Shown: positions 2,963-61,960 of the stretch, in pieces | How positions within the stretch are numbered: position 1 is the stretch's first letter | Layout: each line of letters starts with the position of its first letter | Source of the DNA: Boothiomyces macroporosus | Lineage: Eukaryota > Chytridiomycota > Chytridiomycetes > Rhizophydiales > Terramycetaceae | Assembly: GCA_027604185.1 (NCBI GenBank) | Contig: JADGKB010000025.1 | Location: forward strand, 79,643 to 143,642 | Direction of reading: 5' to 3' | DNA length: 64,000 bases | Made by a program: the position numbers and the translations under genes | Notes under the pieces: generated by a model | Databases searched by the model: none | Told to the model about the DNA's origin: nothing | The model's input: the letters and a program-made list of their open reading frames with translations, nothing else

Positions 2963-5306
2963 TTAAGGGCCATTATTTCTTCTTTCTCTTCTATCTAATC
3001 CACTACTTGTACCTCCTCTAAATTCCATGTATGCCATAGAGTCTCCTCCAGAAAGGGATGAAATTTTTGATTCCAAACGGGTGAATTCAAAAGTTGGATT
3101 CAAGTCATCCTCCTCTTCTCCCTCTTCTTCAAACTCTTGTGTTTCTAATGATAAAAGTACAGTATTCAGCAACGACAATTCTTCACTCAAGTGCTGATAT
3201 ACGCCATCTTCCATTCCTTGAATATTTGTAATAATTTTAAATTCATATCCTTGATCTATTAAAAATTGTTGTCGCTTTGTCGCGTAATACATTTCTTCGG
3301 TATCCTTAGACACCAATGTGTAAAAGTAAGCATTCACTTTGGTAGCGCAATTCTTCTTTGGTCTCAGAATTCTACCAAGTCGTTGAGCTTCTTGCCTTCT
3401 GCTGCCAAAATGGCTTGAAATTTGTATCAAACAAGTTGCTTCAGGTATATCAATCGAGGTGTCTCCAATTTTACTGAGAAAGATGGTGTTTAATGCGGGA
3501 TTGAACCTGAACTGCTGCAATAATCGAATACGCTCTGATTGTGATGTACCCCCATAGAGATATGGTTTCTGTAGTTTTTCGGCGTAATGCTAGCAATATA
3601 AGAAAATCAACTAACCTTTAGGGCAAATACATTATCAGAGAATACAATAATTTTATCCCCCTTGATATAAAATTCTAATTACCATTGCTTCATGAACAGC
3701 TATTAGATACTGGCATGCCTTGATTTTGTTTGGATTCATGGTGTACAGTAATTGCCTTTTTCTGAATGTCATACATCATTTTACCTGTATGGTTGTCGAA
3801 GATACTCTCTGTAAAATGGCTTGGTCATATCGCACCACACTTCATTGCACTATACGTTACTGCACTAGTACTTGAACATTAGCAATGTATCCAAGAGAGG
3901 CAAGTTCCATCCAGTTTGCTTCAAACAACTTTGGGCCAATTAACCAGTTTAAATTATGAATTTTCTCATCCTCTCTCACCAACGTTGCTGTTAGTCCCAA
4001 TTTTGCATGGGAGGAGATAATAGTTAAAGTTTTTTTGAACATGTCTTATTAATTTAGCAATACCTGCTGGTACCACATGCACTTCGTCCATCAATAGAAA
4101 GCCCCATTCTCTTGATTTGATGAATTCCAGCATGTTTTGAGCATCATAAGCTCTATTTCCACTGTGTGTAAGCATGGTATATGTTGATATTAAAACTCCT
4201 GCATCTCCTTCAAAGGGCTGTTTACACTCTGATGAAAATTTGGCGATATCCGAATCTTTAATTGTAGTCCAATATTTGAATTCACGAGTCCATTGCTCTA
4301 CACTTAAACTATTATCAATTTGACAGTATACCTAGAGTTGCAAAGTACCAAGCAGCTTTTTTTGATGGTGCAAGCAGCAGTCACTCCCACAAGTGTCTTG
4401 CCAGCACCACATGGAAGAACGATGATACCAGATCTTGCTCTTCCATTTCCAAACATTTTCCCCAAACTCTTTTCTTGGTATGAACGCAACTTTGCATTTG
4501 GCTTCAAATCTTGATTAGCACCAAATACCTAAAGCCAGATGGGGATTGAAATGATCTGCGTGAAAGTCGTATTCCTCTAACATGGGATATGACAGCTCAG
4601 CACACTTTTTCTTTAAAGTTTCCACATCATTCTTTTTAATTTCAAATTTCCTGTCAGTCCTTATTTGTTCTAATAAGCTGTCAAGTGTAATAATATTGGT
4701 GTTTTCTCTCTCCTCCATGTTCCCGTCACTGGATTCCTCTTCCAAATCAATATCGTGGTCAAACACTGAAAATAAATCGATTGGAATAGCGTCTGCATTA
4801 TTTGGCAGCGGAGTAACACCCAGTAAACTTGTTTCCAAAATACTTAATATATCAGCATCTCCAAGTAACTTGTGCAGCAAAACATCATCTACACATTCTA
4901 CAAAATATCGATTTTCAATTAAAATTAAGCGGACTTTTCCATAACAGGAAGTTGATGATTTAATGAATTCCAATACTGAATCTGGTATTTCGGTTTTACA
5001 AAGTTTTTCCAATCCCTCGATAATTGTATCAGCATTCAATCCAACCGACACTGCCGCGTACAGTGAATAGGTTGTTAATTTGTATTCATGTATCCTAGCT
5101 GGTCTTGAAATAGGTTCTGCAATGGCCAACAATAAATCTTCCGCCTGCTGATGAATTGGGCTGAAGGCTGATATTAAGAATTATAAACCTTCCAATATAA
5201 TCCTGTAATCTTCGTTTATCCACAGTGGACGAATTCCATGGTCAATTTTTAAGCTATTTTCAACCTCGTTTGAAAATTCAAGATCAGAGTCACTCTCAGT
5301 TTCCAT
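2963..5306 (-). CDS. SSL2: TFIIH DNA helicase subunit XPB/Ssl2 (ERCC3, Rad25)
   Basis: XPB is the 3'-5' DNA translocase of TFIIH, acting in promoter opening for RNA polymerase II and in nucleotide excision repair. The spliced protein is 722 aa, against about 780 to 840 in human and yeast. It starts METESDSD and shows the N-terminal XPB region ([17 protein letters not shown]), Walker A GAGKT near residues 287-291, the DEVH box near 386-389, TATL followed by the XPB-specific RED motif, and motif VI ([10 protein letters not shown]) near 580-590. Nine exons are joined by eight introns: 5168-5188, 4510-4528, 4309-4331, 4045-4063, 3850-3871, 3762-3784, 3661-3682 and 3590-3615 (21, 19, 23, 19, 22, 23, 22, 26 nt). 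Removing them gives 723 codons exactly. The C-terminus is acidic and short. The gene lies 47 bp downstream of the UPRT stop, on the same strand. Confidence 0.96.
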
Positions 5307-5353
5307 TAAAAAGTTGAACTTTTTAAAAATTGACTTTAAAAAGCTTGAGTTTA

Positions 5354-6048
5354 TTAATGTGAGGTATTGAATAAACGATCTCCGGCGTCCCCCAATCCAG
5401 GATAAATGTATCCCCTGTCAGTCAATTCCTCGTCAATATGCCCAACGACGATATCAATATCAGGGTGAGCTTGTTGTAAAGCTTCTACACCCGATTTAGA
5501 AACAAGGATGGAGCAAAATACGATTCTCTTTAATCCCCAGTCTTTCAAAATATTCACTGCTGCAACAGCGGTACCTTGGTTACACTTGGCCATTACCTGC
5601 AGTTGCAATCATAGGATCGACAATGAAGCCAACGTCTAATTTGCACTCAGATGGCAGCTTGTTGTAGTATTCGACTGGCAAAAGGGTTGTCTAGCGTTAT
5701 ATCAGTTTACCTTGTCACGGAATAATCCCAAGTGATGGACAGTGGCCCCTGGTAGCAAGGTCAAGAAGGCTATCGTTAATAATTTGTACAATCAATCATT
5801 CCTTGCCCAGCACGCATAATTGGGAACACTCCAATTTCATCTTTCAACTTGATACCCGTATAAGGACCAATTGGGGTGTGCAATTGCTTTGTGGTTACGA
5901 CATCTAGCCTTTCAGTAGCTGTAATGCCAAGGATTAGAGTTAATTCGCTGACAAGAGCTCTGAATTCTCTTGATTTCAGTTTTTCATCACGAACGCTAGA
6001 CAATTTCTCCAAGAATATCGGATGGTTAACGATTCTGATCTGGCCCAT
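5354..6048 (-). CDS. FUR1: Uracil phosphoribosyltransferase (UPRT, FUR1/URC6 type)
   Basis: UPRT converts uracil and PRPP to UMP; in yeasts it serves salvage and also feeds the URC uracil-catabolic route (URC6). The spliced protein is 210 aa, the normal length. Visible elements are the N-terminal VNHP segment, RAGQGM, the PRPP-binding loop VDPMIATAGT and the C-terminal uracil-binding GYIYPGLGDAGDR. The loop has Ala where the usual DPMxATGG has Gly. Introns are 5770-5789 (20 nt), 5691-5710 (20 nt) and 5575-5596 (22 nt); the last splits the PRPP loop. Removing them leaves 211 codons. The gene is divergent from URC1, whose start lies about 615 bp away, which supports a shared role in uracil use. 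Confidence 0.95.
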
Positions 6049-6663
6049 TTTCAGTGATTAGTTGATTTCAAGTTGAAGAAATGCGGACGCAAAGCCACCT
6101 CCTTATGAATCGGAATCCCCATTTAATGGCCGCATCAAGATAAACTAGTAAATAGCACTAATGGATATTCGAATACGCCTATCCTTTCTCACTGCTTCTG
6201 CTCTGCCTGGCAGGAACGCATCGTTGAATTTAATGCAAATCTCCCCAGAAATGCATTTAATTTTCATCGGCCAAAGGGATATACTTTCCTCTAGTACATT
6301 GAAATTGGTTTGTATTAATTTTATTGATCTTGTTTTGCTCAATCTCGTTATATTTGAAATAATGCGATGGGCAATGGCTCCCTTTAGTTTCCATAAACGC
6401 AGTGGCATGCTGCACATGAGCACCGTTTAGCGATAAGAATTTTCAAACGAAAGCTTCTTTTACTTGGGACACATTGGTTAGCTGAAGGGTTCCAACCAGG
6501 AGATTATGGCTGTTTGGTTGATTAGCTGCTTACCAAGCTGATACAAGAAATCATTTTGTTAATTTCGTAATTGTTGTACAAGGAATCAGGCCCACAATTA
6601 AAGCGATTGCGGTCCCTATGACCTGCCGTTCACCCTTTTCATTTTCTCTCCAGTGCCGCAAAA
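6049..6663. other. Divergent intergenic region between UPRT and URC1, with unassigned open frames
   Basis: This is the shared upstream region of two genes that act on uracil, so it is a likely bidirectional control region. Between about 6145 and 6430 it is open in several frames at once (92 codons minus, 89 codons plus, and another minus frame). I could not join these to a recognisable protein using short introns. One minus frame runs into a stop at 6051-6053, two bases from the UPRT start, and reads MGIPIHKEVALRPHFF just before it. It could be a small unrecognised gene, a decayed gene or chance. Confidence 0.35.
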
Positions 6664-8271
6664 ATGGATCTCAAACCAGTCGTCGACGCAATCAATAATT
6701 TATCAACCAGAGTAAGTTTGAATTAAGATAGCTTGATGAATATCAAAAAGAGACTCGTGCTGAACTAAACTTGCTAAAGAACAGCATTGTTCCTCCTTCC
6801 CCAACTTTCAAGATTCACCAATCGAGTACTAGTAGCTTTAATGCGTAGATATCCCCGAACCATTAAACTTGGAAGCTGAACAGCAACCATTAACCAAGAG
6901 ATCTTCCTTTGGTAATCGGGAAACAACAGCTGTTTCTCCAGCCCCAAAAGCTGGGAAAAGTCAATATCCAGATAGAATTATCTTGACTACTTACCCTGGA
7001 AACTCCAAGGTTAACCCAATTCCGTTGAACTGGGGGGCGGAAGATGCAGCTGCAAGAGGACCGATTGTTGCTTCACGCCATCCTCAATCACTCCCATTAA
7101 GAAACGCAATAGGGGCTCACGGTGGTGCATATTCCATCTATAGAGCGCTTGCAGTTGCTATGGGCCAATTGGATGCAAATCACAAACCAAACTTGGTTAA
7201 TACAGAACCGGTTTTCCACGTCCCTCCAAACAAGTCTTGGTAAACGGACCTTAATATTAGGTTTGACCCAATGAAAATTGTTTCCATGGATCCTTGGGGG
7301 CATTTGGTTCAGGAAGCATTTGGCGACAAGTTGAAAGAAGGGTTGGATTTGCGACCAACAATCGCACTTACTAAAGCACATATGCAGTTGGCTGAAATTG
7401 AATCTATGGTGAAAGATGGAAGCTTAAAAATTGATGGAAAAATTGTTCTTGACAAGAAGGGACAATTAATGGTTACTAAAGGTGCTGTAGAGCCAGTTTG
7501 GTACTTACCTGGTATCGCAAAACGTTTTGGGGTGGATGAAATTTCTCTAAGACGTGCGTTGTTTGAAGATACTGGTGGCATGTACCCTGAATTGATCACC
7601 AGAGGCGATTTGAAAGTATTTCTGCCACCTATTGGCGGCTTGTCGATCTATATTTTTGGGCCACCAGCTTATATCTCTGATCCTACCAAGAAATTAACTG
7701 TTAGAGTTCACGATGAATGTAATGGCTCGGATGTGTTTGGTTCAGATATTTGCACCTGCAGACCATACCTTATTTATGGTATTGCTGAATGTGTACGACA
7801 GGCTCAAGAAGGAGGTGTCGGTTTGATAGTTTACTTCCGTAAAGAAGGAAGGGCTTTGGGAGAAGTAACGAAATATTTGGTTTACAATGCAAGAAAGAGA
7901 GCAGAAGGTGGTGATACTGCAGCAAATTATTTCCTTAGAACTGAAAATGTTGCAGGTGTTAAAGATATGCGTTTCCAAGCTACAATGCCTGATGTTTTGC
8001 ACTGGTTAGGAATTCAAAAGATTGATCGAATGATCAGTATGAGCAACATGGTAAATGGGGTTAATTGTAGAAATATGATGCCATAGTCGGCTCTGGTATA
8101 TCAATTTTGGAAAGAGTGGAAATCCCTCCAGAGATGTTGCCTCCTGACAGTCAAGTTGAAATTGATGCTAAAATTGCTTCTGGTTACTTTTCTGCAACTT
8201 CTGCTAAATCTGCAGAGCCGCCAAACCTTGAAAATATCAAAGGAAGAACTTGGGATGATATCAATCATTAA
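6664..8271 (+). CDS. URC1: URC1, GTP cyclohydrolase II-like uracil catabolism enzyme
   Basis: Urc1 is a GTP cyclohydrolase II relative needed for the non-reductive uracil catabolic pathway described in Lachancea kluyveri, where it is thought to act on a uridine nucleotide. The spliced protein is 507 aa. It shows an N-terminal part with LTTYPGNSKVNP and a C-terminal cyclohydrolase II core with the zinc-ligand pattern DEC...CTC (HDECNGSDVFGSDICTC) and the loop FRKEGRALG, which corresponds to the HRQEGR-type motif. Introns are 6712-6731 (20 nt), 6826-6848 (23), 7240-7260 (21) and 8051-8070 (20); removal gives 508 codons. The ATG at 6664 is the first in frame after the divergent promoter region. 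URC4 follows downstream with one gene between. Confidence 0.94.
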
Positions 8272-8343
8272 TTCTAATAAAATAGTTTTGATTCGACTTG
8301 GTTTGTTTATTCATGTAAACAAATTGGAAACGAATTTTCCAAA

Positions 8344-9028
8344 ATGTCCACAGAAGGTATCTAGGCATATAATTAAAGCAAAATATCAAGGACCAAGGTC
8401 TCAGCGATTTAAGGTAGTCCAATGTCTGATGTAGACTGACCGTTCCGCGACAAACGATATTGGACCTGGAGATTACGACCTCAGCGGCGTACATCTTTAC
8501 TAATCCAGGATACCATGGCAGCAAAGACATTATTGAAGCCCACATCAAAGCTGGGGGTTGGGATTGTAAAGTCAATTCGCTTCCCAAACTATAAGAGCGA
8601 TGTAAATGAAGCTAACATAGATTCCTGGCGCTGGCCAATACGAAACAAAATCATTTATCGATTTGATTTCATCTAAATGCACCTCCACAAGAGAAACCTT
8701 TAATACGCGCGAGAAAAAGAACTGTGTAGATCTAAGGCTAAGGAAGGTGAGGCTATTTTAACAAGAACACTTGCTTCGATTCACCAGGACCCGCAATTTA
8801 CAACATCAACTACGCTATTGGGCGGCATGTAGCTAATGATAATAAGTTTGCACTCGACAAAAACACATGGATGAAAATGGTAAATGAAATTGATGATAGA
8901 GGGATATTGAAAATGCAGAGCAGATGCTAAACTTGAAAGACTTGATTGGGAAGCACGACATATTCACAGACAAGAAGGCCTGTCGCCGAATGGCTTATTT
9001 ATCTTTATATTATCCCCTTAAAGGATGA
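8344..9028 (+). CDS. Sperm-tail PG-rich repeat (SHIPPO/STPG-like) protein, seven exons
   Basis: Proteins of this family bind ciliary or flagellar microtubules. Unspliced, the region looks like a broken gene. Removing six introns (8357-8378, 8414-8434, 8489-8508, 8602-8620, 8747-8765, 8880-8899; 22, 21, 20, 19, 19, 20 nt) yields a clean 187-aa protein from ATG to TGA. It contains PG-rich units YQGPRSQRF, IGPGDYDLSG, IPGAGQYETKSF and DSPGPAIYNIN at the spacing expected of the repeat, then a charged C-terminal part. A further 18-nt GT..AG stretch at 8829-8846 is in frame and may or may not be spliced. The first exon is only 13 nt. It lies between URC1 and URC4, so the uracil cluster is interrupted by a flagellar gene. 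The family call is good; the exact orthologue is not determined. Confidence 0.82.
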
Positions 9029-9136
9029 AATAAATGAGTATCCGATCCAATAATTGTATTCCGCACTAGTGTAACATTCCTCTTTGAGCATATCCGTAGT
9101 CACGCTGCCGCTGGTGGCTTTCCCGCAATTCAACAA

Positions 9137-10444
9137 ATGCAATCAACCATTGAACACATAAAGTCATTGGATTCAATCCGTCTCAGAACAAATTTAGTAT
9201 TTTCGCACCCAGAATGTCTTCAAAACTTTGATATAGACTTGTCGAAACTCCCTGCTGTTGCTGATCTTGTCGTTGAATTGATCAAGAGGGATTACAAGTC
9301 CCCAGCAGAAATCCCACCTCATTCAAGATGGAGACATTTCGAGGCATCGCCAGTGTTCAATAAAACAATTGACCGTATTGGGGATTTGATCAAAAGCTGG
9401 AAGACTGCGGGAATTGATCATCTTGAAATTGTACGCAGATTGCTCGACTTGTTTGTAACTTCCGTCTTGTTGGATGCTGGTGCAGGAGCAAAATGGAAAT
9501 ATACTAATAGCAGCGGCACCTACAATCGTTCAGAAGGTTTGGGAATTGCGTCGTTGGATTTGTTTTTGGAAGGTGCCCTTTCATCTTCAAGCAACCCCTT
9601 CCAGTGTGATTCCAAAGGTCTTGAAAATATTACTGTTGAAAAATTAAGCAAAGTATTCCAAGTAAGTGAAGAAAACCCACTTGTCGGGCTAGAAGGACGA
9701 TGTAACTTGTTGCAAAGACTTGGCTCCACTTTGTTGAACTACCCAGAGTTCTTTTCAAGAGATTCGGTTTCCAGGCCTGGAAATTTGGTTGACTATCTGA
9801 TTAACCATCCTACAACCAAGACTGTCGATGGAACTCACCAAGTTCAAATTGAATGTTTATGGCACGTGGTAGTAGTAGGATTTAGCGGGGTTTGGCCTGA
9901 TACTAGAACCAAACTAGGTGATACCTCATTGGGAGATGTCTGGCATTGTAAAGCTTTGGAAGCTGTTTCTAAACTTCCATCAAAACCACTAGGGCAATGG
10001 CCTGGATCCGAATCACTAGTTACATTCCACAAGCTGTCCCAGTGGCTCACCTATTCGCTTATGGAGCCATTGCTGTTGGCCAATATTAAATTTATCGGTG
10101 TAGAAAAGATGACAGGACTTCCAGAATACCGCAATGGTGGGCTATTCGTAGATATGGGGGTTCTTACTTTGAAAAAGAGCATCCTATCTTCTGTACCTGC
10201 TGGAACCATTCCTAAGTTCCAAGTTTGGGATGACGCAATTGTGGAATGGCGTGCCTTAACCATTCCACTTCTAGACAAGACCGCTGAATTGGTTAGACAG
10301 AGACTGAATATGACTGCAGAGCAGCTCCCGTTAGCAAAGGTTTTGGAGGCTGGAACTTGGAAAGCAGGAAGAGAAGTAGCAGCCAAATTAAGAAAAGACA
10401 AAGGCCCTCCAATCGAAATTATCTCTGATGGTACAGTGTTTTAA
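9137..10444 (+). CDS. URC4: URC4, DUF1688 uracil catabolism protein
   Basis: URC4 is required for growth on uracil through the URC pathway in yeasts; its biochemical step is not firmly known. The protein is 435 aa in one exon, typical of DUF1688. Recognisable stretches are the opening MQSTIEHIKSLDSIRLRTN, the RWRHFEA segment, VLLDAGAGAKWKY and SEGLGIASLDLF, all characteristic of the family. ATG 9137 fits the usual N-terminus. AATAAA begins directly at the stop (TAAATAAAC). With UPRT and URC1 upstream it completes the core of the URC set in about 5 kb. Confidence 0.94.
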   Translation: MQSTIEHIKSLDSIRLRTNLVFSHPECLQNFDIDLSKLPAVADLVVELIKRDYKSPAEIPPHSRWRHFEASPVFNKTIDRIGDLIKSWKTAGIDHLEIVRRLLDLFVTSVLLDAGAGAKWKYTNSSGTYNRSEGLGIASLDLFLEGALSSSSNPFQCDSKGLENITVEKLSKVFQVSEENPLVGLEGRCNLLQRLGSTLLNYPEFFSRDSVSRPGNLVDYLINHPTTKTVDGTHQVQIECLWHVVVVGFSGVWPDTRTKLGDTSLGDVWHCKALEAVSKLPSKPLGQWPGSESLVTFHKLSQWLTYSLMEPLLLANIKFIGVEKMTGLPEYRNGGLFVDMGVLTLKKSILSSVPAGTIPKFQVWDDAIVEWRALTIPLLDKTAELVRQRLNMTAEQLPLAKVLEAGTWKAGREVAAKLRKDKGPPIEIISDGTVF

Positions 10445-13947: not shown

Positions 13948-16900
13948 ATGTCAGAAACAAAACATATTGCACACGCTGCGTTGCCAACAAAACCATACAG
14001 CGACGAGCGTATAGCTTGGATAAAGCGCAAAGTCGAAAACAGTCTGGCGACAGAACTTGAACATGCAAAGGAGATTTTGGAGCAACTACCAAATTACGAT
14101 CCAAATGAAAAAATGGACCTGTTTAAGGATTGTTTAACTCGAAATAACAATGAAAACTTGCAAATGCTAGTTGATTTTCTAGAGGATACATTCAAATCAA
14201 ACACTGCTTTGTTATTTTGGACTGAAAAAGTTGTTTCTAAAGTTGAACTACCAGCTCAACAGGATTCAAAGCAAAGTATTATGAATGAAACGCAAGTGAC
14301 TGAAGTGAAGGCAGATGGTGAAGAAGTTCCTCAAGCAGACGAACCTCAAGCACAAGAAACGAACCCTTCTATGCAGACAACCGGGGATATTCCATCAATA
14401 GAAAAACTGCCAGAATCGTCCGAAATTGATGCTGTAAATGAGACTGACCCTAGGATATCCCAAACACTGTACAAGTGGAAAATTCCATATCAGAATCTAA
14501 ATTTATGACATATGAAACTGTATCGTTATTCATGGCTGTTCAAAATATTCCAGAAAATGTGGTAGAATCAAATGCAGTTTTCTTTATTAAAAATACCCCA
14601 GGTCCAGTACCTCAGGCATCTTCTCCAGCTAGTAATTTTTCTTTTATTCAGGCGCTGATGATATCCTGCCAAATCATCTAGAAATCGGTTTGTTTTCCAA
14701 TCAGGCCTTGATTATGCTTGAACAGGTGTTGGAAGATATTATCATTCCACTGCTTGGCAACATGGAGATCAGTACTTTCCAAGAAGAAAAGGAAAGCTTT
14801 GGAGAAAATCAAGACCGAAATGATCCTGGGAATTCAAGAAATGAGGAGCTTAAAGCTGAGCTGCTGATTACAATGCAGAGATTTGCCAGCCAAATCAACC
14901 ACACTGTTCAACAGGTTGCTGGGGAAACTAGATTAAAAATTCCAGACGAACTGACAGAGTTGAACGTTTTGGAGCCAATACAAGTGATACAAGATAAAGA
15001 AATTGTAAATCGACTTGAAAAATTGGCGGAAGAATGGATAGAAACCGTTTCAGGAGCGCTTGGGAAAGATGCCAAAAAAGTTCCTCTTGGAAATGTAGGA
15101 ATATCTAACGCTAGGGTCCTTTGGCGGAAATTGAATACTGGAGGGATCGCAGTGCTTCTCTTTCAACACTGTACGAACAGTTGAACCTTCCAATCGTCCA
15201 TAAAATAGTAAAGACCTTAAACATGGCCAAAGTTCCTTGTTCGTCTTCCTTGGAATTCCAACTGTCTGAACTAAACAAAATATACTCTGAAACAAAAGAT
15301 AATGTAAAATTCCTCAGTACACTGGAAAGACATTTTAAAAATATAGTGATCGGTAGTATGACTAGTGTAGAGGTAGTTGACGCTTGACATTTAGGACTCG
15401 TTAATGTCATTGATGAATGCAATCAGAATGGTCTGGATTATTTCACGTCATTATAATCGCGACGAAAGAATGGTGCCTTTGATGAGCAGAATAGCATGGG
15501 AGCTCTCAAATAAGGTCGCCAATGCGGTAAACATTCAAACGATTTTACGAGAACCTTCTCTTGAAACAAAAAAGAAAATACTTGATGCAAAATCACTGCT
15601 AGAAAAATGGAGCTCGACTTACTTCCAAGTGCGTGAACGAATCGAGCAGTCTGGTAGAGATCAAAGGTGGGAATTTGATCGAAAAAAGCTATTTGAACAT
15701 ACAAATTACATGTCGCTGAGGTGCGGTGATTTATATGAAATTGCTGAAGTGATGGATCAGTTTTACTCGATTTTCGGACCAGAATTAAAGGCAGTCACCG
15801 GGGATCCACAGGCAATTGACGAAGTCATAAAGAGAGTCGAGGCTCTAATTGTTCCATTTGAAACTATTCCGTTTGACATTTTCGATAAGAGACATCAGAA
15901 TGCTTGGGAAGGGGTAATGGGCAGATTCAGGGAGCAAATAATACAAATTGAAGAGATGGCAAAACAGTTTATTGACGCCTCCTTCAAAAAACTTCATTCT
16001 GCGGAAGGTGCTTTCGACTTGCTGCAAAATATCAAAAATATCAAATCTAGAGATTCAATCAACAAGCAGCTTATGGGCAAGTGGTATGAAATTCTAGATC
16101 AATATGCTAGAGAAGTCGACATTATCGAAGATATTTTTAAAAAACACAAAGACAATCCTCCATGTTCCAAAAATCAACCAAAAGTAGCAGGTGCAATCGC
16201 ATGGAGCCATTCACTGTTTGACAGGATAAAGAAAACTATCGTACGTTTTCAATCCTTGCAAGAAATGGTGGCAAGTGATCAAGGAAGAATGGTTACCAAG
16301 AAATATTTGACTGTTGCCAAAGCAATGAGGGCGTACGAAGAACAGGTAAGTGCTTTTTAAGTTAGCTCTATCATCAGTGGTGCATCTCAGTGGAAGCAAA
16401 CTCACTACAACTGCTCAAAAACCACATTCTAACAAGGGATCAAGCTCCAAATGCCAGTGCAGTAACAGCCGTTGGAGATAACATAAGTGTGAATTTCCGT
16501 CCTGAATTAAAAGACATTATCAAAGAGACAAAATATCTCGACAAGTTGAGCCTCTCTGTTCCAGAAGCTGCACTCAATGTCGCGCTTCAAGAAGAAAAAT
16601 ACTATCATTTGGTGGAAAACTTGAATACAATGATAAGGTCATACAAGGCAGTAATGGATCCTCTTGATTCTTCTGAAAGAAAGCTGTTTGCTGTGCATAT
16701 TAATGAATTGAGAAGAGTGATGAAGCCAGGATTCACGAGATTAAACTGGAATTCTTTGGGAATCCCCGAATTTATTCAGCGCTGCAACATGGAGATAAAC
16801 AAATTATCTTCGTTAGTCAATCAAACCCGCAAAAATTCTTCAAACATTAGCCGCGCAATTGATCAGATAGCGAACGCAGTATTGCTTGTGGAACCACCAA

Positions 16901-48347: not shown

Positions 48348-51024
48348 TTATTTTTGTTTGGATCTGTTGAATAGTTTCAACCCAAGGATAGAAAGCAAGT
48401 GCCAGCACAAAGTAATTTTCACCATGTTTGTGATGCAGAGGTTAAAGTCCCCAAAATCATAAAAGTGGTCAGGCTTCAAGTTGAATCCAGTAGCTGATAC
48501 TTCTTTGATCCAAATTGCCTCAATAGCCCATCTAGGTGCAGAAATTTCCCAGAGCCATTGGACAGCTGAAGGATAGGAAGTTTTTACATCCCACAGGTCT
48601 GGAACGACACCAGATAATACAAGAGCCCACAATAAAGAGAAACCCGTACCATAAACAGCCAACTTGGAGTACGGAACGGCGGTGGAAAGAGCATAACCTA
48701 GTGCAAATCCATAAAAGTGGAGCAAAATAACAACACTAATCAGTGTAGTATACTTTTGAGCGTATGGGAAAAACATGATCAATGAAACAAAGTACATACA
48801 AGCGCCAATCAAGATACGAGGAATGTCAACCAGAGCCTTTGCAACATAGTATGGAATGACAGACATACCAGAAGCAGTGTCTCTCCAGTATACAACCTTT
48901 TCGTAACCAAAGGTGTTTCCTGCAATAGAGATACCAACAAACAAACTTCCAAGAGCAATGAACATACCTGCCTGTCTAATTGTATCTACTGTAGCTTGGC
49001 ACTGATAGCCAACGTTAGTTGGAGCATATGCACACATTTCTCTTGGGGAGGCTCCAAGATAAGTGAATTTTTGAATGGCGATAGAGATAAATAGTCCAGC
49101 AGTAAAATTGAGTGCTAGATCGACAAGAGTTGCATTCAAATTTCTATATGTTTGCTGAACTGCTCTCTTCATACAGAACCATCCTTGCATAATAATGTTT
49201 GCATTCTTTCTAACATTGTCGGTTTTAAAGATGCCAAGGACAGTTTGGCCAAGCTCGCTCAACACATCACTAAGGAAAGCCCAGAGCTCCTTTAGAATAC
49301 TGGCAAGAGCGACTGCAATATAGTTGGTAAATCCATAATAATCGTGGGCTTTGTGTTTCTTGATTGTATCGTCGTTGAATAATTCTGGTTTAGATTGACG
49401 TAAAAAGTTTTCACGAGCTTGTACAGCTTCTTGTGGAGTCATTCTTCTTGCATTAGCAAACTTGAAGTTGCGACGAGTTTCCCAGTATTCAAACAAGTGG
49501 GCCGGTTCAAAAGAAGGATCGTATTGGGAAGGAATTACTCCAGACGCAACATCCATGAAAAAGTCACTTGGAGATTCTTCTGGGGGGCAAGCGAACCCAA
49601 CGTAGTCAAAGTATTTGATTGCATCTTCTCGAGGGCCAATATAGACCACTCTTCCACCTTTACCCAACAACAAAAAGTCATCGAATTGTCGGAAAGTAGC
49701 TGGGGAAGGAGAATGAATAACAGCAGCCACAGTTAATCCTTGGCTTTGAGCAATTTCCCTCAAGTTTTTACACACTTCAAATGATGTTGATGAATCTAAC
49801 CCAGATGTTGGTTCATCCAAGAATAAAACAGATGGTTCGGCAACCAATTCCATACCAATGTTTACACTACCATTAGCTATAGCTTACCGTTTACGCTGGC
49901 CTCCAGAAATACCTCTTTCAGATTCATTACCAATGATAGAACTGGCAACGTGTTTCATACCCAAGAAAGAAATAATTTTGTTGACCTTTGCCTTAACTTT
50001 GTGGTATTCCCATGAAGCAGGAAGACGCATGCGAGCAGAGTGCATCAAGATATCTCTAACTGTGAGCTCTCTAATCATAATATCTTCTTGAGGGACATAA
50101 CCAATCAGTTTGCTGTAGTTTGAAAGTTCATCAACTTGGCCATTTAGTTTAACAGATCCTGAAGTTCTTGGAACCTTTCCAGTCAACAACGTAACAAAAG
50201 TAGTTTTCCCAGCACCTAAACTAAGGAAGATGAATACCTGAAGGGCCCATAATTGCGCATGTTCTACCAGCTCTTAGAGTGCCAGTGACGCCTTTCATGA
50301 TTTCTACACCTGATGGAAGTCTTAATCCAAGATTTTCGAATTCAATATCAAAAGTGCGTTCCAGTCTATCCATCGAATTGTCCTGCATATTTCTTGCAAA
50401 TCTGGCGGCGGCAGCAGTTTGTTCCAACTCGCCCTTACGCTTGGCTTCTCTGATTGCATCTGCTTTGGCTTTCCAGTGATAAAATCCATAAATGATCAAA
50501 GCAACTATTAAAAACACTACCAACACAAAAAACTTTGGCGCTTCAGTACTACCGACAGGGCAGTATGAAAGGAAGCATGATTTTGGAGTGATTGTACCAG
50601 TTGGACAAAATTGACCTGATATCAGTTACCGTTTACCTCCTGGACAATACTCAATTGTCTTTGTATCATTTGAACAGTGGAACCCTGCAGGGCAGTATAT
50701 AGGCTCCATTGCGTTGTCTGGACAGTAGAATCCTGGAGTGCATGCAAACTTTTCAGTTTGTCCTGGGCAGAAGAAACCTGCATCACAAGTCCAGCCATGT
50801 CCTTGAAAATCTGGATCACTTGGAATAGGGGTGCGAGGATATTGACAACTTTGGGCAGTTGAAGGAATATTAGCTGGTGGATTTGTAATATTACAGTTGA
50901 CATATTTTCTAAGCTTGGTACCCCAGAAAACAGGGTCGAATGCATACTGGCTAACAGTTTGTGGGTCTGAAATGGACTGCGCTTCTGCGGCAACGAATAG
51001 ACCACTAATTAACAATCCAAACAT
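48348..51024 (-). CDS. ABCG half-transporter with cysteine-rich extracellular N-terminus (ADP1-like)
   Basis: The spliced protein is 870 aa. Order: signal peptide (MFGLLISGLFVAAEA), a cysteine-rich outer domain of CPxGxxC-type repeats (FCPGQ, FYCPDN, FHCSND), one membrane segment (VVFLIVALIIYGFY), a nucleotide-binding domain with Walker A GPSGAGKTT, signature ISGGQRKR, Walker B VLFLDEPTSGLD and H-loop IHSPSP, then an ABC2-type membrane domain. This resembles yeast Adp1 and plant ABCG members with the same N-terminal module. Introns: 50616-50636 (21 nt), 50216-50237 (22, splitting Walker A), 49867-49887 (21); removal gives 871 codons. A TATA-like motif lies at 51048-51056. Substrate unknown. 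Convergent with the nucleoside transporter, 62 bp between stops. Confidence 0.92.
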
Positions 51025-54401: not shown

Positions 54402-57400
54402 TTATTGAATTAATGGCTGTAACACGTCAAAGGAACCAGTGCCTCCCTTTACAACTTTACCCATGGCGATTCTCGCCGATGGAGAATCTAATGGATCAAA
54501 ATCACCTGTCAAAGTGGCAGTATTAAGGAAGTGAGTAGTTCTTTCGTATGACATTTGGGTAAATGGCGAGGTGTTAGAGTCCATACCCATTCTGTTGAAT
54601 GGTTTATAACCACCTTCAAAGGTCATGTAATCACCTATTAATGATAAATGGCGAGGGTCGACATCGATACCATAAACACCAAACACAGACGCAATTTCCT
54701 GGGTGATTGCTGATCTTGCGGCTTCGACACCATATGTACGAAGAACAGCAGAGATGTCGTTTGTGTAGACCTTATTGATGTCAATGAAATCAGAATATTC
54801 CCACATTCCTCTTAAATTACATCCTTCAGTTCCAAGGTTTACCTATAATTAGCTTTTCATTACGGAAGTATCATTTTCAGATTCGTTAGGCTGTGGGAAA
54901 CACCTTTGAATATCCTTAACCTGATGAATTACCACATTTTGACAAACTGATTCAACCAACGCAACCATAAGTATTTTCTTTGTATCTGCAGGGAACTAGG
55001 ATTAGCTTAGATTACCTTGACTGAAATTTCACAAGTTTGTCCAGTAGACTTGTCAAATTTAAATCCAGAGACATACTTTGAACTATCAACAATTCTATCT
55101 TCTTGTTCATCTTGAGTATTATTGACCATTTCTTCGTCATCGTCAGATTTTTCCTGATCTTCTTCATCTTCTTCGTAGGTGGATTGCTGTTTTCTCTTGG
55201 CTTTTCCTTTTGAAGAGGCAACATCACCATCGTTCTCGTCGTCAGTGTCTTCTCCAGAGTCAGATTGCTCCTCGACTGCCTTATTGCCAGCTTGTTCATC
55301 CTCGTCATTATTTTTGGATGAAATAGATTTCTCTGCAACACCCACACCAACGTTTTCGATATCGTTAACATCTTTTCGTAGTCTTCCCTTCAGATCTCTA
55401 GAAATAGCTCGTTCAAGAGCCGGAATAAATGATTTTTCTAATATTTCAGCCAATTTTGAAACTGTGATGTTGTACTGTTGCTTGTAGTGTTTTTGGTGCC
55501 AGAATTCCAATTTGATTTTTAATAATTTACTTCTTGGTTGAGAATAAGACTATGGTTATTCGAATATTACCTTTGGCACAAGGGTTTCGGTAACAGTAAC
55601 ATTTTGCATAACTTGAGATAATACCAATCTCGAGATTTCTTCACATAATTCATTTGCCTTTGTTTCGCTAACATTGTCTTTCAGAGGCAATCGCATCAAT
55701 GGAGTTTTGATGGATGAGGAGGCTGTCATGATAATTTCTCTAAGACGAGGGATACCTAAAGTAACGTTCTTTGCACCAAATCCAGCAAAGTGGAAAGTGT
55801 TTAATGTCATCTGTGTGGATGGTTCACCAATGGATTGTGCAGCTAACAAACCAACGGATTCTCCAGGCTCTACTAATGAATGCATATATTTCAGATTCAT
55901 CAACATTTTGAATCTGTCAGGTTCAATTAATGGGCAAGACCATGTTTGTCTGTCGGTGGTAGAGTCATCAATCAACTTTGAAGGATTCTTTTTTACATAT
56001 TCATCCAGCTTGCCCTTGAAAGATTCTGAAACTGCTCCGATAAATTTACTTGGGTTAAATAGAGAAAGAATCGGATCGTGCTCTATTCCTTTTTTCTTGT
56101 GCTTTTTGATAAATTTCCTGACTTTGTCTTCTTCAACTTTATCTGCAATGTTTTCGGGATTGTAACGGCTAATTAAAGCATGGTAGTTCAGTGCATTGAA
56201 ATCAAACTTTTTCAGAGTTGTTTGTTTACATACATCCAAGGAATCTTCACCATAATGGAACTGCAATATTGATCCATCAAGGTCCCGAACAGTTTGATCG
56301 TAATGAACTCTAATACCTTCCAAATGCTTAATCAAACATCTTTGCAAGTATCCTGAACGGGATGTTTTGACAGCAGTATCAATTAACCCTTCTCTTCCAG
56401 CCATACAATGGAAATAGTACTCTTGTGGCTTGATACCTGTCAAGAAACGACCAGTAATGTAACCGCCGGATCTGGCAGAAGTATCGAACGCAGTGAAGGA
56501 AGGCAAAGTTTTCCCCGAAACCATCGTAGGTACTCTCTTACCCTCTAATTCTTGTTGCCCTAACAAACAAGAGATCTGTGATACGTTAACTGAGGATCCC
56601 TTTGCACCAGAAACAGTCATAACTTGCATATTGTTCCTTGGGAAAGGTTTGTATAGCATATCAGGCACACACGAACTGATAATCTCTGACGTAACTTTGT
56701 TGGTTCTAGTTTTCATCGCAGAGTCTAATCCAGCCATTTTTTCGGAATCACGCAGTACAAGCTCCAATCCAAGTTTAATATGTTTGGCATTCTTTTGCTT
56801 GACGTATTCTGAAGATGCTTCATAGCCAATCTTTTGAGCACTATCAATTAACGCCCTTCTTTTCTTATCACCTTCTGGAGTGAGCAACAAGTCATCCATT
56901 CTACAAGAGAATCCAACGCTTTGCAAATACGCTGTAAACAATCTTCCTAGGATGGAAAGTAGCTTTCCAGCATATGGTGGTCCGTAAACTTCATATACCG
57001 CATGAACAAGACCGTTTCCACTAGCGCCGAATTGAGATTTATCCAAAATACCAGTGAGCAAATCTCCATCCATAATAATAACCTTTTGCTCTTCTGGAGC
57101 AGTTGGACCCCACTGTTTTGCTGGAATTCTAGACTTTGAAATCAAATTTAATCGACTTCTATCTTGCGGAGTAATATTGTCCAAGATGGTTGATATGATT
57201 TGTTTTCCAGTCCACCTTGGAACAGGCTTTAAAATTGTAGGTGGTTGTAGAATCAATCTTCCGTTGACTCCAAAGACAATTGGAGTTTCAATGTTTCCGT
57301 TTCCAATAGATGCAGCAGAGTTGCTTTCTCTGAGCCCAGCATATACCAATTGAATGTACTCTTCTCTCTTAAAGAACGAATCTCTGGAGCACATGTCTAC

Positions 57401-59384
57401 ACCAGCATCGACGTGATCTTGAATAAGACCTCTCAAAACACCACCATCGGTAGGGACGAGATATTGCTGATCTGTTCTTGCGATAATCATTGCTTCTGCA
57501 CGGGCAATTTCATTTTGCGGAAAGTGAGCATTCATTTCGTCTCCGTCAAAATCTGCGTTATAGGTGTTACAGTTGGCATAGTGCATTCTAATTGTTCTTT
57601 CACCTGGCAATACTCTAGCAGTGTGAGCCATAATTGATGGTTTATGGAGAGTAGGCTGTCTATTAAGGAGTAAAAAGTCGCCATTGCGCAAATGTCTATA
57701 AACCTTTTTGTTTGTGTTTTTGAACTGGTGAGCTACTATTAAAAATTATTTACAAGTGCCGGCATGTCCAGTTTGCAATGAAGGTGTCAACAACTGATTG
57801 GCTAATGCAGTTCTACCAGCTTGATCAAATGCACCCAATGAAGTCAAAGTACCATCTTCATTTTGAACATGAGTTGCACCCGGCCAAATTTCTGGACCAT
57901 TAATTACACAAGTTCTCATTTCTTTTACATTGTGTGGAGTGACAGGTTCAGGATAAGTCAATTTTTTGGCAAAGACAGGCGGAATACCAATTTCATTGGT
58001 TTCGATATAAGGATCTGGTGAAATAACTGATCTGGCGGCATAATTCACTCTCTTACCCATCATATGCTTTCGGAACAAACCTTCTTTTTTTTCTAATAAT
58101 TGTCTTACACCAGGTGGTGCAACTTTTCCTGGTGGAGCAGGTGCCTTGTCCGAGTCAATGAGAAAATTGACAGATTCTTGCAGCTTGATCCATCCATCAA
58201 CTTTCCTTTTCAAGAAATCATCTGCTTTTAATGCCTTCAACTTTGGGTCTTCATCCATGTTGGTTTCGGACCAAGATTTCTCCATTTGCGAGATATCTTG
58301 AATTTGAATGTTTGCCTTGATGATATCAGACAGATAAATGTTTTGTGGGTGCTCAAACATTTGATCTCCAACTACAGAAACAGGTCGGAATTTTGAAGGC
58401 GTAACAGCAACAACCTCCAAGAAAAAGATGTTTGGAGAGGAAGTGCGAACCCCCTTTTTGTTTGAGCCATATAGCAAATCTAGAACGTGCTGCTCTTTTT
58501 TCCACAATAGTTCCAGGTGCGCCTTCACAGTTAGTGGTGTAATGTAAACATCGGTGTCTGGCAAGTTCTTTTCGTCAATGGTTGGGGCATCGGCGAATAG
58601 CTTTGCCCTAGTTAATCCTCTAGCATTCATGGTAGCCTTCTGCTTTGGATTTAATGGCTTTTCAAATATTTTAACATTGCCTTCAGTTCGGAATTTTGGT
58701 GAGTACCCATGACAGTTTTGGCATGACTGAGCAGAGATTACAGATAGGTATTGACGTTCAACCTTACGTAATGTCTGGGTAATCAAAGTGGTCTATATTA
58801 GTCCAGCTTACCTTGATGAACTTTTGGTCAACGTTTTTCAATGCTTTGGTGACATATTCGTCAATTTGCTTTAAGATTCTTTCTTTAGGACCTTCAGCGA
58901 TATCTTCTTGGTCGTCTTCTTCCTCCTCTTCGTCGTCATTCTTTTTTCTTGGCTTAACATCTATCAGCGAATCCATTTCACTAGCTTCAACAAGCAAACC
59001 GGCATGGATCAATCGCAGCTTTCCGGCGTAAAGCGTAGTAACCAAATCGGATACTCTAAAATGGTGACAGTAATGACAAGTAGATTGCAACAACTTGTAC
59101 ATGAGTCTAAAGTTGATTGGATTGTAAACAGGAACGGTCAAATCGACATGGCCAAAGTGTCCAGGACAAGATTTGTGATCCAACTGACACGTTCCACATA
59201 GAGTGTCCTTGCTATGCGGTCCAAGACAAGGATCGTAGAGACCTCCAGTGGTTGGGTGATTCAGCGTATCAAATATTTGCGGGTTTGTAATTGCTTTAAC
59301 TGAAAAGTTTTTAATATCTTGGGTTTCATAAAAGGAAAAGGAGACCTTTTGTATACTTGAAGAAACCGGATTCGATATATTCAT
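54402..59384 (-). CDS. RPA190: RNA polymerase I largest subunit (RPA190/RPA1)
   Basis: The catalytic subunit that makes rRNA. The spliced protein is 1626 aa (yeast 1664). It has the N-terminal zinc site CGTCQLDHKSCPGHFGH (about residues 62-78), the active-site metal motif NADFDGDEMN (about 597-604), the funnel/bridge region (GLLAAQSIGEPSTQMTLNTFHFAG), a Pol I-specific acidic insertion in the jaw (about 55190-55330) and a C-terminus with NRMGMDSNTSPFTQMSYE and GTGSFDV, which identify Pol I rather than Pol II or III. Introns: 58793-58811 (19 nt), 57733-57753 (21; an 18-nt version using the first of two adjacent TAG acceptors is also in frame), 55550-55570 (21), 54996-55015 (20), 54843-54863 (21). 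Removal gives 1627 codons. Confidence 0.96.
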
Positions 59385-59694: not shown

Positions 59695-60816
59695 ATGGAC
59701 TGCGAACTGTAATACTATACTGACTTAGAACTGCCAAATTATTTCATTTTGATAAAGTATTGCATTACTAATTAGGCACAATCAGAATGGATTTTCAAAG
59801 GTGTTGGCAAAGTAACTGTCAAAGATTCTATGGTGAATATGGCCGACCCAAAAATCAATTTACCAATGCTATCACATTCAAGTAATTCATCCTAACATCA
59901 GTTACCGCAAATCTATCTCTAGTAATGAGTGAAGGCTCTGATCGTTCCTGGGTATATCATGCCAAACCGGATCTTACAGATAATGTCAATCGATTGGTAG
60001 CAATCAGATTTGCTAATTCAAATGGTGTTTATTTACTAACAGAGACGCCAATACTTTTAAAGAATGTATTGAAAAAGCAAAATCAGATAGCAAGTCCGTA
60101 ACAGAATCAGCTCCAACTGAAAACATTTCTGCACCGCCAGAAACACCTCTAAAAACCGAAATGGTATTTACAATTAATCTCAGGATATCCCACCTTTAAA
60201 AGAACCAGAATTGGAATTGATTAAAGACGAAAATGTTTCCTTTCAATAACACTAGGAGATTAAATCCGAGATTGAAACAAAGACCGAATCTAAACCAGTT
60301 GAACAAGCTGTTGAAGAAAAACATGATGCGATTGCACCTCACGAAAACATTGAACCTGGAGCAGTCAAAGAACACGTTGAAACATTAGAATTCAAGGGAT
60401 TGAATGAACCAACAACTGAAAACGTTTCTGAGCAACCAGCACCTGAATCAAACCAAACAACCGAAAACCCAGATGAAACTAAAGACCAAGTATCTTTAAA
60501 TCAACAAGAAACAGTTCAAGAAGGATTAAAAGAATCCGAATCGTTAGTTGAACATGAATTGGAAGAAAAAATCAAAACACTTCATACTGGAGAAACTGAA
60601 CAAAATCACTCTCAAGGCCATCAAACTGGTGAGGAGCATGAACATGCAGCTGAGAAACCAGATCAGGAACAAGCACACGCTGCTCCAGAACAATTAAAAG
60701 AATCTGGTAACGAACATAAAGCAGAAATGGAAAAAGATCATGAACAAGTATCTGGTAACGAGCATAATCAAGAAACCAAACACGAACACCAAGAAACAAA
60801 GGTAAATGGAAATTAA
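59695..60816 (+). CDS. Ran-binding-domain protein with Glu/His/Gln-rich tail
   Basis: Ran-binding domains bind RanGTP in nuclear transport. The spliced protein is 333 aa from seven exons. The RanBD1 domain (about residues 1-110) shows CELTAKLFHFDK, the SEWIFKGVGKV segment, GSDRSWVYHAKPD and LVAIRFANSNDANTFKECIE, in the order found in RanBP1/Yrb1, RanBP3 and Nup50-type proteins. The rest is low-complexity, Glu/Gln/Thr then His/Glu/Asn/Lys rich. Introns: 59709-59728, 59757-59775, 59882-59901, 60025-60044, 60164-60183, 60235-60255 (20, 19, 20, 20, 20, 21 nt). The first exon is 14 nt. Removal gives 334 codons. The domain starts almost at residue 1, which differs from Nup50 and Yrb2, where it is C-terminal, and is closer to RanBP1. 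Confidence 0.8.
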
Positions 60817-60890
60817 ATCAGACCCAAGAGCTGCCTCCATTGCCAGCAAATGAACAAACTGCTTAAAATATAAAAATTCTTTTTTAACAA

Positions 60891-61960
60891 CTACAAGAAG
60901 TTTGCCATAGCGGCTCGTATAAATTCCATATTAAGTTCTTTATCAGGGGAAGTAGGGAGTATCTCGGTATTAGGCTCTGTCGGAATTTTTAAATTATGAA
61001 TAGATCCACTGGAAAAGAATGAATTTCTATTTCGGAAGCCATCTGGGGATCTAGAGTCCATCACGCTACCAATCTAGTGTTATATAGAATTTACTTTGTG
61101 GAACCCTTCGGATATCGTCTCGTAGGTTTCTAGCTCAGCTTCCACCGTTTTTGTAAGCAACTGGAGTATAAATGGGACATTTTCTTGCGACAACTTATCT
61201 GGAATGCATTCGTTATATAAGGATAATCTCTTGATTTCATCCGCAAGAGCCATCCTCAAATTCAGGGACTGTGTTAGGAATTTCTTACTTTTTGGAGCTC
61301 TGCTAAATCTCTAGTCTTTTTCTTTTTCATCTTGTATGAGGAATCCTCTTCCGAATGTAACTGCTGAATCAATTTTTGAATTTGCTGCTTGTTTGCTTCT
61401 TGCTTTGTTTTGGCTAGTTGTGGGATCTCATTTAGACATGCTGTGAGTGGTTCTTCCACCTCCTTTTCAATATTGTTTGCCCATGTTTGGTGCGCATTAA
61501 CAATCAGCTGTGAGGAATCAATTAAAAAATCTAAATCCGAAACGACATTGACATCATTAACTTGGGCTGAAATTAATCAAATAATACCTGCTGGCACGCA
61601 ATCTGCTACTTCTTGCAATGCCCGAACAAATGTCTCTGTTGCTGCCGCCATTGCTTGAATTTGTCTCTTGTATGCACCGATAGCATGAACAAATGTTTGA
61701 TACTGCATATAAGTCATAGTTTTCGGTTCCTTGGATTCGTTATTACGAGGATCGTAAGGCCCTCCTGCAACAGACACAGAAACATCATGTCTGCCAACTG
61801 CAAATGGAATCGCACCTGAGAAATTATTTTGTTGAACTTGCTTTCGTTGATTTTCGCTTCGCACATCAATTCCAGAATCGAATGATTGCTTTAAATATTG
61901 ATTTGTGGTCTGTAATGGTGTTGGCCCACTTATATCATTCTTGGTAATTCGCTTAGCCAT
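60891..61960 (-). CDS. BAR-like coiled-coil protein, resembling Ivy1
   Basis: The spliced product is 335 aa. It has an N-terminal region (MAKRITKNDISGPTPLQTT), then a long helical, coiled-coil-prone region (about 80-270; MTYMQYQTFVHAIGAYKRQI, basic KMKKKKTRDLAELQK) consistent with a BAR or I-BAR-type membrane-binding bundle, and a short polar C-terminal tail (RSPDGFRNRNSFFSSG). The overall plan recalls yeast Ivy1, a phospholipid- and Ypt7/Vps33-binding protein of the vacuole. Introns: 61567-61587 (21 nt), 61269-61288 (20), 61074-61094 (21); removal gives 336 codons. Convergent with the Ran-binding gene, 74 bp between stops. The BAR-fold call is moderate; the Ivy1 name is tentative. Confidence 0.6.

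Follow-up and report, generated by a model that had tools for sequence, protein, structure and literature searches.

Are the segments of about 20 nt which interrupt the genes of this locus spliceosomal introns, and how could so short a segment carry all the signals that splicing requires? The locus is a 64-kb stretch of DNA (G000:C25:79643-143642, called the window here) from a 15.2-Mb assembly made up of 216 contigs, and the first-pass annotation had described ultrashort introns throughout it. In our study this observation was confirmed from the sequence. The segments are regarded, with a probability of about 0.95, as genuine U2-type introns (those of the major spliceosome) with a floor of about 19 nt, which would be handled by a nearly ordinary spliceosome in a chytrid of the Boothiomyces/Terramyces group.

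Introns of the window

The introns were placed with a custom two-strand gene finder, in which a Markov coding model was seeded with the long reading frames of the window and introns were treated as jumps; those of the XPB gene were also, or instead, placed by hand against the XPB family. Before hand correction 72 window introns had been placed. The comparison with the XPB family resolved a 93-nt call into introns of 22 and 26 nt flanking a 45-nt exon and added two further introns of 22 and 23 nt, so that the corrected total is 75 GT-AG introns, 71 of them 19-23 nt long. The lengths are 19 nt (13 introns), 20 nt (27), 21 nt (18), 22 nt (10), 23 nt (3) and 26 nt (1), followed by single introns of 44, 45 and 56 nt. 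They are spread over 17 genes (18 of the 27 gene models bear introns, XPB being split in two), whereas 21 intron-bearing genes had been reported at first. The earlier total of 76 introns differs from ours within the noise for such tallies; in its breakdown (15, 27, 17, 10, 3, 2 and 2 introns of 19, 20, 21, 22, 23, 26 and 44-45 nt) the counts for 20, 22, 23 and 44-45 nt agree with ours and those for 19, 21 and 26 nt do not. The example given there, a 19-nt intron at 4510-4528 on the minus strand, is present in XPB and reads GTATTTGGTGCTAATCAAG. The introns of this gene are as follows.

2963-5306, minus, XPB/Ssl2 gene, eight introns (21, 19, 23, 19, 22, 23, 22, 26 nt), by family alignment
3590-3615, minus, 26-nt intron
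3661-3682, minus, 22-nt intron
3762-3784, minus, 23-nt intron, from the hand check
3850-3871, minus, 22-nt intron, from the hand check
4045-4063, minus, 19-nt intron
4309-4331, minus, 23-nt intron
4510-4528, minus, 19-nt intron, the example above
5168-5188, minus, 21-nt intron

The size class in the genome

The count was extended to 264 kb (the window together with 20 stretches, each of 10 kb, on 19 contigs) and to 324 kb by further loci, including those of the spliceosomal genes, with seven overlapping or duplicate loci (L001, L025, L033, L040, L043, L044 and L045) removed ahead of the 324-kb count; 0.32 of 15.2 Mb was examined in this way. In a first naive run, in which only GT..AG ends were required and the length prior was uniform, the window yielded 38 introns, with 14 at 19-22 nt, or 15 after retraining. 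With the retrained coding model, again with GT..AG ends only and equal weight on every length from 10 to 120 nt, 61 of the 162 introns in 264 kb were found at 15-24 nt, with a spike at 19 nt (9 introns), 20 nt (26), 21 nt (15) and 22 nt (6). Decoy ends placed far smaller shares at 15-24 nt, namely 9 of 138 for GT-AC, 15 of 147 for GA-AG, 13 of 144 for TG-GA and 11 of 126 for CT-AC, and the coding model of this comparison had been trained on window genes stripped of motif-scored introns.

Once weights for donor, branch, acceptor and length had been learned, 288 of the 303 introns in 264 kb were 19-24 nt long. The window held 72 of the 303 and the outside stretches 231, of which 220 were 19-24 nt; introns of this size occurred in all 20 outside stretches, with 3 to 28 per stretch. 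Over 324 kb the learned model gave 384 short introns (19-24 nt) among 403. When the length prior was flat and the motifs were retained, the share was 304 of 379, and the remaining introns fell at 14-18 nt (1), 25-39 nt (5), 40-70 nt (22) and 71-200 nt (47), the long ones being scattered. Removal is needed for an open frame in 366 of the 384 short introns, a figure which leans high because the gene finder favours frame-restoring introns.

The pattern GTA...YTRAY-N1-3-YAG was also counted by total length in 264 kb, independently of any gene model, against five third-order Markov simulations. It occurred 50, 70, 34 and 15 times at 19, 20, 21 and 22 nt against simulated values of 6.8, 7.6, 7.4 and 6.0 (169 against 27.8), was near background at 14-18 nt (3-9 against 6.2-9.6) and 23-27 nt (3-8 against 5.0-8.4), and gave scattered counts at 28-40 nt, with a maximum of 13 against 5.8 at 39 nt. 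Since the spike begins at 19 nt here as well, the sharp lower edge at this length is taken as real. These counts point to ultrashort introns as the standard of the genome, nearly all in one narrow class of up to about 25 nt, and genome-wide rather than local. Extrapolation from the 231 introns per 200 kb outside the window gives about 17,600 introns in the genome.

Continuity of the encoded proteins

The coding sequence is continuous after removal of the introns. The junctions were examined, with a gap window of six residues, in the best 120 of 7749 homologues of CCT gamma and the best 120 of 7031 homologues of XPB. In these sets the five CCT gamma junctions are gap-free in 96, 117, 118, 120 and 120 homologues, and the eight XPB junctions in 115-120. 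All eight XPB junctions also lie in gapless alignment with the best solved chain, as do all four tested junctions, out of ten, of the dynein gene with solved DNAH10 chains. Removal of the tiny introns raised the profile match of U2AF65 from 230.7 to 342.7 bits (curated cut-off 310.3) and replaced two partial Slu7 matches (154.6 and 94.7 bits) by a single full-length one of 294.0. The features of the two window genes concerned, in addition to XPB, are listed here.

33647-35411, plus, CCT gamma (TCP-1) gene, five introns (20, 20, 21, 44, 19 nt)
33672-33691, plus, 20-nt intron
33754-33773, plus, 20-nt intron
33985-34005, plus, 21-nt intron
34311-34354, plus, 44-nt intron of the longer class, GTAAGC donor
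34974-34992, plus, 19-nt intron
13948-28057, plus, axonemal dynein heavy chain gene, DNAH10 type, ten introns of 20-22 nt
14434-14453, plus, 20-nt intron
14632-14651, plus, 20-nt intron
15095-15114, plus, 20-nt intron
15373-15394, plus, 22-nt intron
16346-16365, plus, 20-nt intron
17113-17134, plus, 22-nt intron
19880-19900, plus, 21-nt intron, junction gapless against solved DNAH10
21175-21196, plus, 22-nt intron, junction gapless against solved DNAH10
25417-25437, plus, 21-nt intron, junction gapless against solved DNAH10
26761-26780, plus, 20-nt intron, junction gapless against solved DNAH10

Intron anatomy and proposed mechanism

In the 384 short introns the donor consensus has A at +3 (91%), A at +4 (61%) and T at +6 (59%), with G at +5 in 16%. 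The commonest branch motifs are TTAAT, CTAAT, TTAAC and CTAAC, and the base before AG is T in 64% and C in 21% (85% at -3). The putative branch A, assigned by motif, is found at nucleotides 14-16 in 369 of the 384, and is followed by 5 or 6 nt in 341 and by 4 or 7 nt in nearly all others; this geometry supports the earlier description of a branch-like motif only 4-7 nt before the AG. The T content is 41% between the donor and the branch motif and 29% between the branch motif and YAG. With GT-AG ends, the donor fits both U1 and U6, and the YTRAY branch sequence fits the GUAGUA of U2.

All four longer introns (44-56 nt) with a good motif score start with GTAAG. Three of them are the window introns at 29201-29245, 34311-34354 and 41985-42040, with donors GTAAGT, GTAAGC and GTAAGG respectively, and one is in the Isy1 gene (L042 1761-1806). 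Their branch-to-AG spacing looks like that of the tiny ones. A stronger GTAAG donor as a property of the longer introns was considered but is not claimed, as G at +5 is found in 5 of 10 of all 40-70 nt calls, which are too few.

The floor of about 19 nt may be the sum of RNA footprints lying almost end to end. A GTAWKT-like donor of about 6 nt would pair with U1 and later with the ACAGAGA box of U6; a spacer of about 2 nt would separate it from a branch sequence of about 7 nt, which ends in YTRAY, places the branch A at nucleotides 14-16 and would pair with the GUAGUA of U2; and 1-3 nt followed by YAG would close the intron, mostly 5-6 nt past the branch A. As this arrangement would leave hardly any space between branch and AG for a polypyrimidine tract, SF1 and U2AF65 would need another target; this could be the branch and YAG themselves or, upstream of the branch, the T-rich stretch.

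Splicing machinery

Rfam scans of the window and the 20 stretches at the gathering threshold gave no match, and targeted searches of the genome found U1, U2 (two copies) and U6. Their recognition sequences are canonical (ATACTTACCT in U1, GTAGTA in U2 and ACAGAGA in U6); the U1 match is 0.7 bits below the Rfam gathering score and covers the whole model. Eight protein factors were sought and all eight were found, namely SF1, U2AF65, Slu7, Prp18, Prp8, Cwc25, Isy1 and Yju2. SF1 carries KH, zinc knuckles and a KRKTRW stretch, which we take to be of the U2AF ligand type. Introns of 19-24 nt are present in seven of the eight factor gene models, and the partial Yju2 model is without any. Cwc25 has kept its N-terminal GGG plug (MGGGDLNLKKSWHP) and aligns with solved CWC25 starting at residue 1.

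In yeast the need for Slu7 and Prp18 is tied to the branch-to-AG distance. Loss of both factors had been expected from the short distance found here, and loss of U2AF65 for lack of a polypyrimidine tract; both expectations were rejected, and a spliceosome reduced by loss of Slu7, Prp18, U2AF65 or SF1 found no support, all four being present in the genome. With canonical U1, U2 and U6, the eight factors present and the Cwc25 plug kept, the altered spliceosome suggested in the first-pass annotation is mostly unsupported. The scan proposed there (U2AF, SF1, Prp8, Slu7 and small nuclear RNAs) was run, and returned U2AF65, SF1 and Slu7 as present, Prp8 in part and the U1, U2 and U6 sites as canonical. 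Residue-by-residue comparison with solved structures covered two factors, Cwc25 and Isy1, of which the latter has a diverged N-terminus.

Isy1 aligns with solved ISY1 only from residue 34, and the motif M[AG]R[NS]xEKA is absent. The region of its first intron (L042 1259-1308) is ambiguous, since two readings fit, a pair of 20-nt introns separated by a 1-nt exon and a single intron of 50 nt; the 50-nt reading is implied by the JEL0838 protein, and the start is divergent under both. The region possibly holds nested or tandem introns. Among the best 120 of 364 Isy1 homologues, the motif stands near the start in 71. The other 49, grouped by eye, comprise 35 which start at an internal methionine (MLxRF etc.) and are probably models cut short, 2 with MMANEG, 3 near-variants, 5 unclear cases and 4 plainly divergent starts, which belong to Boothiomyces, Globomyces, Kappamyces and Gorgonomyces, all of them Rhizophydiales. 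The model of Batrachochytrium salamandrivorans, also of this order, starts with MLYRFREAQ, which may not be its true start. As a hypothesis, the N-terminus of Isy1 may be linked to intron size, and its divergence may help to admit a very tight lariat; shared ancestry alone could also explain the four divergent starts.

Two pairs of equal-scoring matches were seen in the searches, G000:C49:3542 with C100:5137 (the Cwc25 gene) and G000:C20:74242 with C20:119309, which suggests haplotype or other duplications in the assembly.

The organism and the gene models of its relatives

Judging from its proteins, the organism is a true fungus (Chytridiomycota, Rhizophydiales, Terramycetaceae) near Boothiomyces sp. 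JEL0838. The initial candidates, a sanchytrid, an aphelid or a rozellid, were set aside when the protein matches led to the Rhizophydiales. CCT gamma is 96% identical to that of Terramyces sp. JEL0728, Isy1 98% to that of JEL0838, and XPB 95% to JEL0838, 77% to Boothiomyces sp. JEL0866 and 75% to Terramyces. The dynein heavy chain is closest to solved DNAH10 chains, which supports a flagellated zoospore. Of the initial wording, "flagellated fungus-like", the first half is borne out by this axonemal dynein and the second is sharpened to a true fungus by the protein matches.

In the XPB model of JEL0728 seven extra residues, GNQTSNK, are inserted at junction 252.3, and residues 292-312, 394-409, 452-474 and 500-514 are missing, each of these segments starting or stopping at a junction. 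The model of JEL0866 is without 452-514, from junction to junction, and that of JEL0838 is without two segments at junctions, 473-474 and 510-514, and two shortly before one, 296-297 and 302-309. Gaps off junctions occur in the relatives too, and in the XPB of Globomyces pollinis-pini the junctions are gap-free. Under random placement, with gap ends entered by hand from the alignment and two C-terminal gaps excluded (one each in JEL0728 and JEL0866), the number of gaps at junctions is 5 of 9 in JEL0728 (p 5e-5), 2 of 5 in JEL0838 (p 0.04) and 1 of 2 in JEL0866 (p 0.13). The link between gaps and junctions is strong for JEL0728 alone, weak for JEL0838 and not supported for JEL0866 taken by itself.

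GNQTSNK back-translates to a 21-nt stretch, G-GTAAY...TCNAAY-AAR, and from the protein this fits a retained tiny intron. The likeliest explanation is that the family shares the tiny introns and that annotation pipelines built for longer introns merge or keep them. The JEL0728 CCT gamma and JEL0838 Isy1 models are clean at most corresponding junctions, therefore the pipelines fail only at times. The GenBank XPB models of Terramyces and Boothiomyces are damaged at tiny-intron junctions, and other proteins there may be so too.

Alternative explanations

That the segments arose as indels in assembly or sequencing, or mark programmed frameshift sites, and are no introns at all is scarcely credible. 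Most of their lengths are not multiples of three (85 of 384 are), as expected for indels or frameshift sites, but they start with GTA, carry a branch motif and end with YAG at fixed spacing, they are present in all 20 other stretches, and the relatives' XPB models lose exons or gain an insert at some of the shared junctions. Removal without a spliceosome, either at the DNA level, as for the internal eliminated sequences of ciliates, or by an endonuclease-and-ligase route, could draw on the shortness of 20 nt for a spliceosome and on the evidence being DNA sequence alone. The donor, branch and acceptor motifs, however, fit the canonical U1, U6 and U2 of the same genome and the branching factors are retained, which makes such a route very improbable; moreover, we know of no DNA elimination in fungi. 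The size class could also be in part a product of the gene finder, with fewer real introns of mixed lengths forced to 19-24 nt by the learned length and motif model. With the learned length prior the share does rise, to 384 of 403 as against 304 of 379, yet the spike persists when neither a length prior nor motifs are used, and also when no gene model is involved, and the alignments are gapless at the protein junctions, so this explanation too has very little to recommend it. Less easily set aside, though still unlikely, is that tiny introns are a family trait of the public Terramycetaceae genomes which annotators noticed and published outside the literature covered. The two clean models of JEL0728 and JEL0838 show that some pipelines have removed tiny introns, whereas the search of the open-access literature found no such report and in three relatives the XPB model shows damage at junctions of this kind.

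Several points weigh against U2-type introns served by a nearly ordinary spliceosome. Splicing itself is inferred here from the genome, and the gene finder was custom-built and trained on the same DNA. Negative motif scores were obtained for three window introns (8747-8765, 50216-50237 and 60235-60255), and 18 of the 384 short introns are stop-free with a length of 3n, so that they could be retained. At the first CCT gamma junction a gap is present in 20, and the stretch is absent in 4, of the best 120 of 7749 homologues. The description of the spliceosome as nearly ordinary stands on U1, U2, U6 and eight proteins, with U4, U5 and U2AF35 outside this set, and Prp8 was found as its C-terminal part only.

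Other features of the window

No reading frame of 120 amino acids is present in window positions 1-2960, and the GC content is low (0.33 over 1-4000). The region 5354-10444 holds an apparent uracil salvage or catabolism group, formed by a UPRT-like gene (from our own reading of the protein), a GTP cyclohydrolase II-like gene, presumably URC1-like, and a DUF1688 gene, presumably URC4-like; a small, unrelated-looking gene sits between the latter two. The genes at 28701-29464, 32796-33489 and 42982-43467 encode small proteins with a signal-like start, stretches rich in Ser, Thr, Gly and Asn and a hydrophobic C-terminus, which are possibly anchored in the cell wall. The neighbouring genes 35818-38115 and 38634-40872 encode similar membrane proteins of about 730 residues each. 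Three of their intron positions seem to match (236/231, 512/507 and 574/568, compared without alignment), and the former gene has two additional introns close to its start; the pair resembles a tandem duplication in which introns were gained or lost. The remaining features are given gene by gene.

Gene 5354-6048
5575-5596, minus, 22-nt intron
5691-5710, minus, 20-nt intron
5770-5789, minus, 20-nt intron
GTP cyclohydrolase II-like gene 6664-8271
6712-6731, plus, 20-nt intron
6826-6848, plus, 23-nt intron
7240-7260, plus, 21-nt intron
8051-8070, plus, 20-nt intron
Gene 8344-9028
8357-8378, plus, 22-nt intron
8414-8434, plus, 21-nt intron
8489-8508, plus, 20-nt intron
8602-8620, plus, 19-nt intron
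8747-8765, plus, 19-nt intron, weak motif score
8880-8899, plus, 20-nt intron
Gene 28701-29464
29048-29067, plus, 20-nt intron
29201-29245, plus, 45-nt intron of the longer class, GTAAGT donor
Gene 29491-31228
30582-30601, minus, 20-nt intron
30757-30776, minus, 20-nt intron
Gene 32796-33489
33252-33270, plus, 19-nt intron
Gene 35818-38115
35947-35965, plus, 19-nt intron
36023-36043, plus, 21-nt intron
36567-36587, plus, 21-nt intron
37416-37434, plus, 19-nt intron
37621-37642, plus, 22-nt intron
Gene 38634-40872
39328-39346, plus, 19-nt intron
40175-40196, plus, 22-nt intron
40380-40399, plus, 20-nt intron
Gene 41134-42671
41364-41382, plus, 19-nt intron
41553-41572, plus, 20-nt intron
41985-42040, plus, 56-nt intron of the longer class, GTAAGG donor
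42218-42238, plus, 21-nt intron
Gene 43565-45030
43599-43619, minus, 21-nt intron
44140-44158, minus, 19-nt intron
44832-44851, minus, 20-nt intron
44954-44973, minus, 20-nt intron
ABC transporter gene 48348-51024
49867-49887, minus, 21-nt intron
50216-50237, minus, 22-nt intron, weak motif score
50616-50636, minus, 21-nt intron
54402-59384, minus, RNA polymerase I largest subunit (RPA190) gene, five introns
54843-54863, minus, 21-nt intron
54996-55015, minus, 20-nt intron
55550-55570, minus, 21-nt intron
57733-57753, minus, 21-nt intron
58793-58811, minus, 19-nt intron
Gene 59695-60866
59709-59728, plus, 20-nt intron
59757-59775, plus, 19-nt intron
59882-59901, plus, 20-nt intron
60025-60044, plus, 20-nt intron
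60164-60183, plus, 20-nt intron
60235-60255, plus, 21-nt intron, weak motif score
60802-60821, plus, 20-nt intron
Gene 60891-61960
61074-61094, minus, 21-nt intron
61269-61288, minus, 20-nt intron
61567-61587, minus, 21-nt intron

Comparison with known systems

To our knowledge, introns of 15-22 nt were so far known as the genomic standard from heterotrich ciliates, a nucleomorph and mikrocytids. Ultrashort U2-type introns as such are already known, and it is their occurrence in a fungus that appears new and surprising; no report of such introns in a chytrid or any other fungus was found in the open-access literature, with subscription journals largely outside this search. A chytrid with tiny introns, which rank with the shortest on record, offers a way to ask how small introns can get. 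Such introns seem to depend neither on the reduced genome of a parasite nor on a spliceosome that is visibly reduced, and the lower limit of intron length becomes comparable within one fungal order. The JEL strains belong to a culture collection (PMC7537106), and as the relatives carry its numbers, RNA sequencing and splicing work look feasible.

In Stentor coeruleus the introns are 15-16 nt long; the N-terminus of Yju2 is reported to be kept, the glycine plug of Cwc25 to be lacking and the N-terminus of Isy1 to be non-conserved (PMC9505925). The present introns resemble them in GT-AG ends, narrow lengths, about 5 nt after the branch A, canonical U1, U2 and U6 and a divergent Isy1 N-terminus, and differ in their length of 19-22 nt, in a clear YTRAY (weak in Stentor), in the Cwc25 plug being kept and in being found in a fungus. 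It may be speculated, at rather long odds, that in one lineage of the Rhizophydiales U2-type introns which keep a full YTRAY branch site are already as short as is physically possible, the U6, U2 and YAG footprints touching each other, and that the same element, Isy1, has diverged independently in Stentor. If this were true, Isy1 would contribute to setting the minimum intron length, and a single protein end could be tested for this role.

The cases cited in the first-pass annotation were ciliates and the Bigelowiella nucleomorph; these stand, and mikrocytids belong there too (PMC10245619). These reduced parasitic Rhizaria have introns of 16-17 nt, 224 of them in Mikrocytos, which are uniform, extremely short and conserved in sequence as here, whereas the number extrapolated for the present chytrid is about 17,600. 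In the chlorarachniophyte (Bigelowiella) nucleomorph, introns of 18-23 nt (PMC6461891; 18-21 nt in PMC10245619) cover an equal length range and the recognition sequences of the small nuclear RNAs are likewise retained. The nucleomorph, however, is a relic nucleus in which no donor motif can be identified and U1 and U5 are shortened, in contrast to the GTAA-type donors and the U1 matching the whole model found here. Paramecium and Nyctotherus also have short introns as their genomic standard, but these are longer (about 25 nt) and occur in ciliates (PMC5014332). GT-AG spliceosomal introns are further shared with Trichomonas, where they are 23-24 nt long and few in number (PMC12316389), and with Cryptococcus, whose mean of 63 nt counts as relatively short among fungi according to a survey covering 644 fungal genomes (PMC8476143) and is three times the length of the introns described here.

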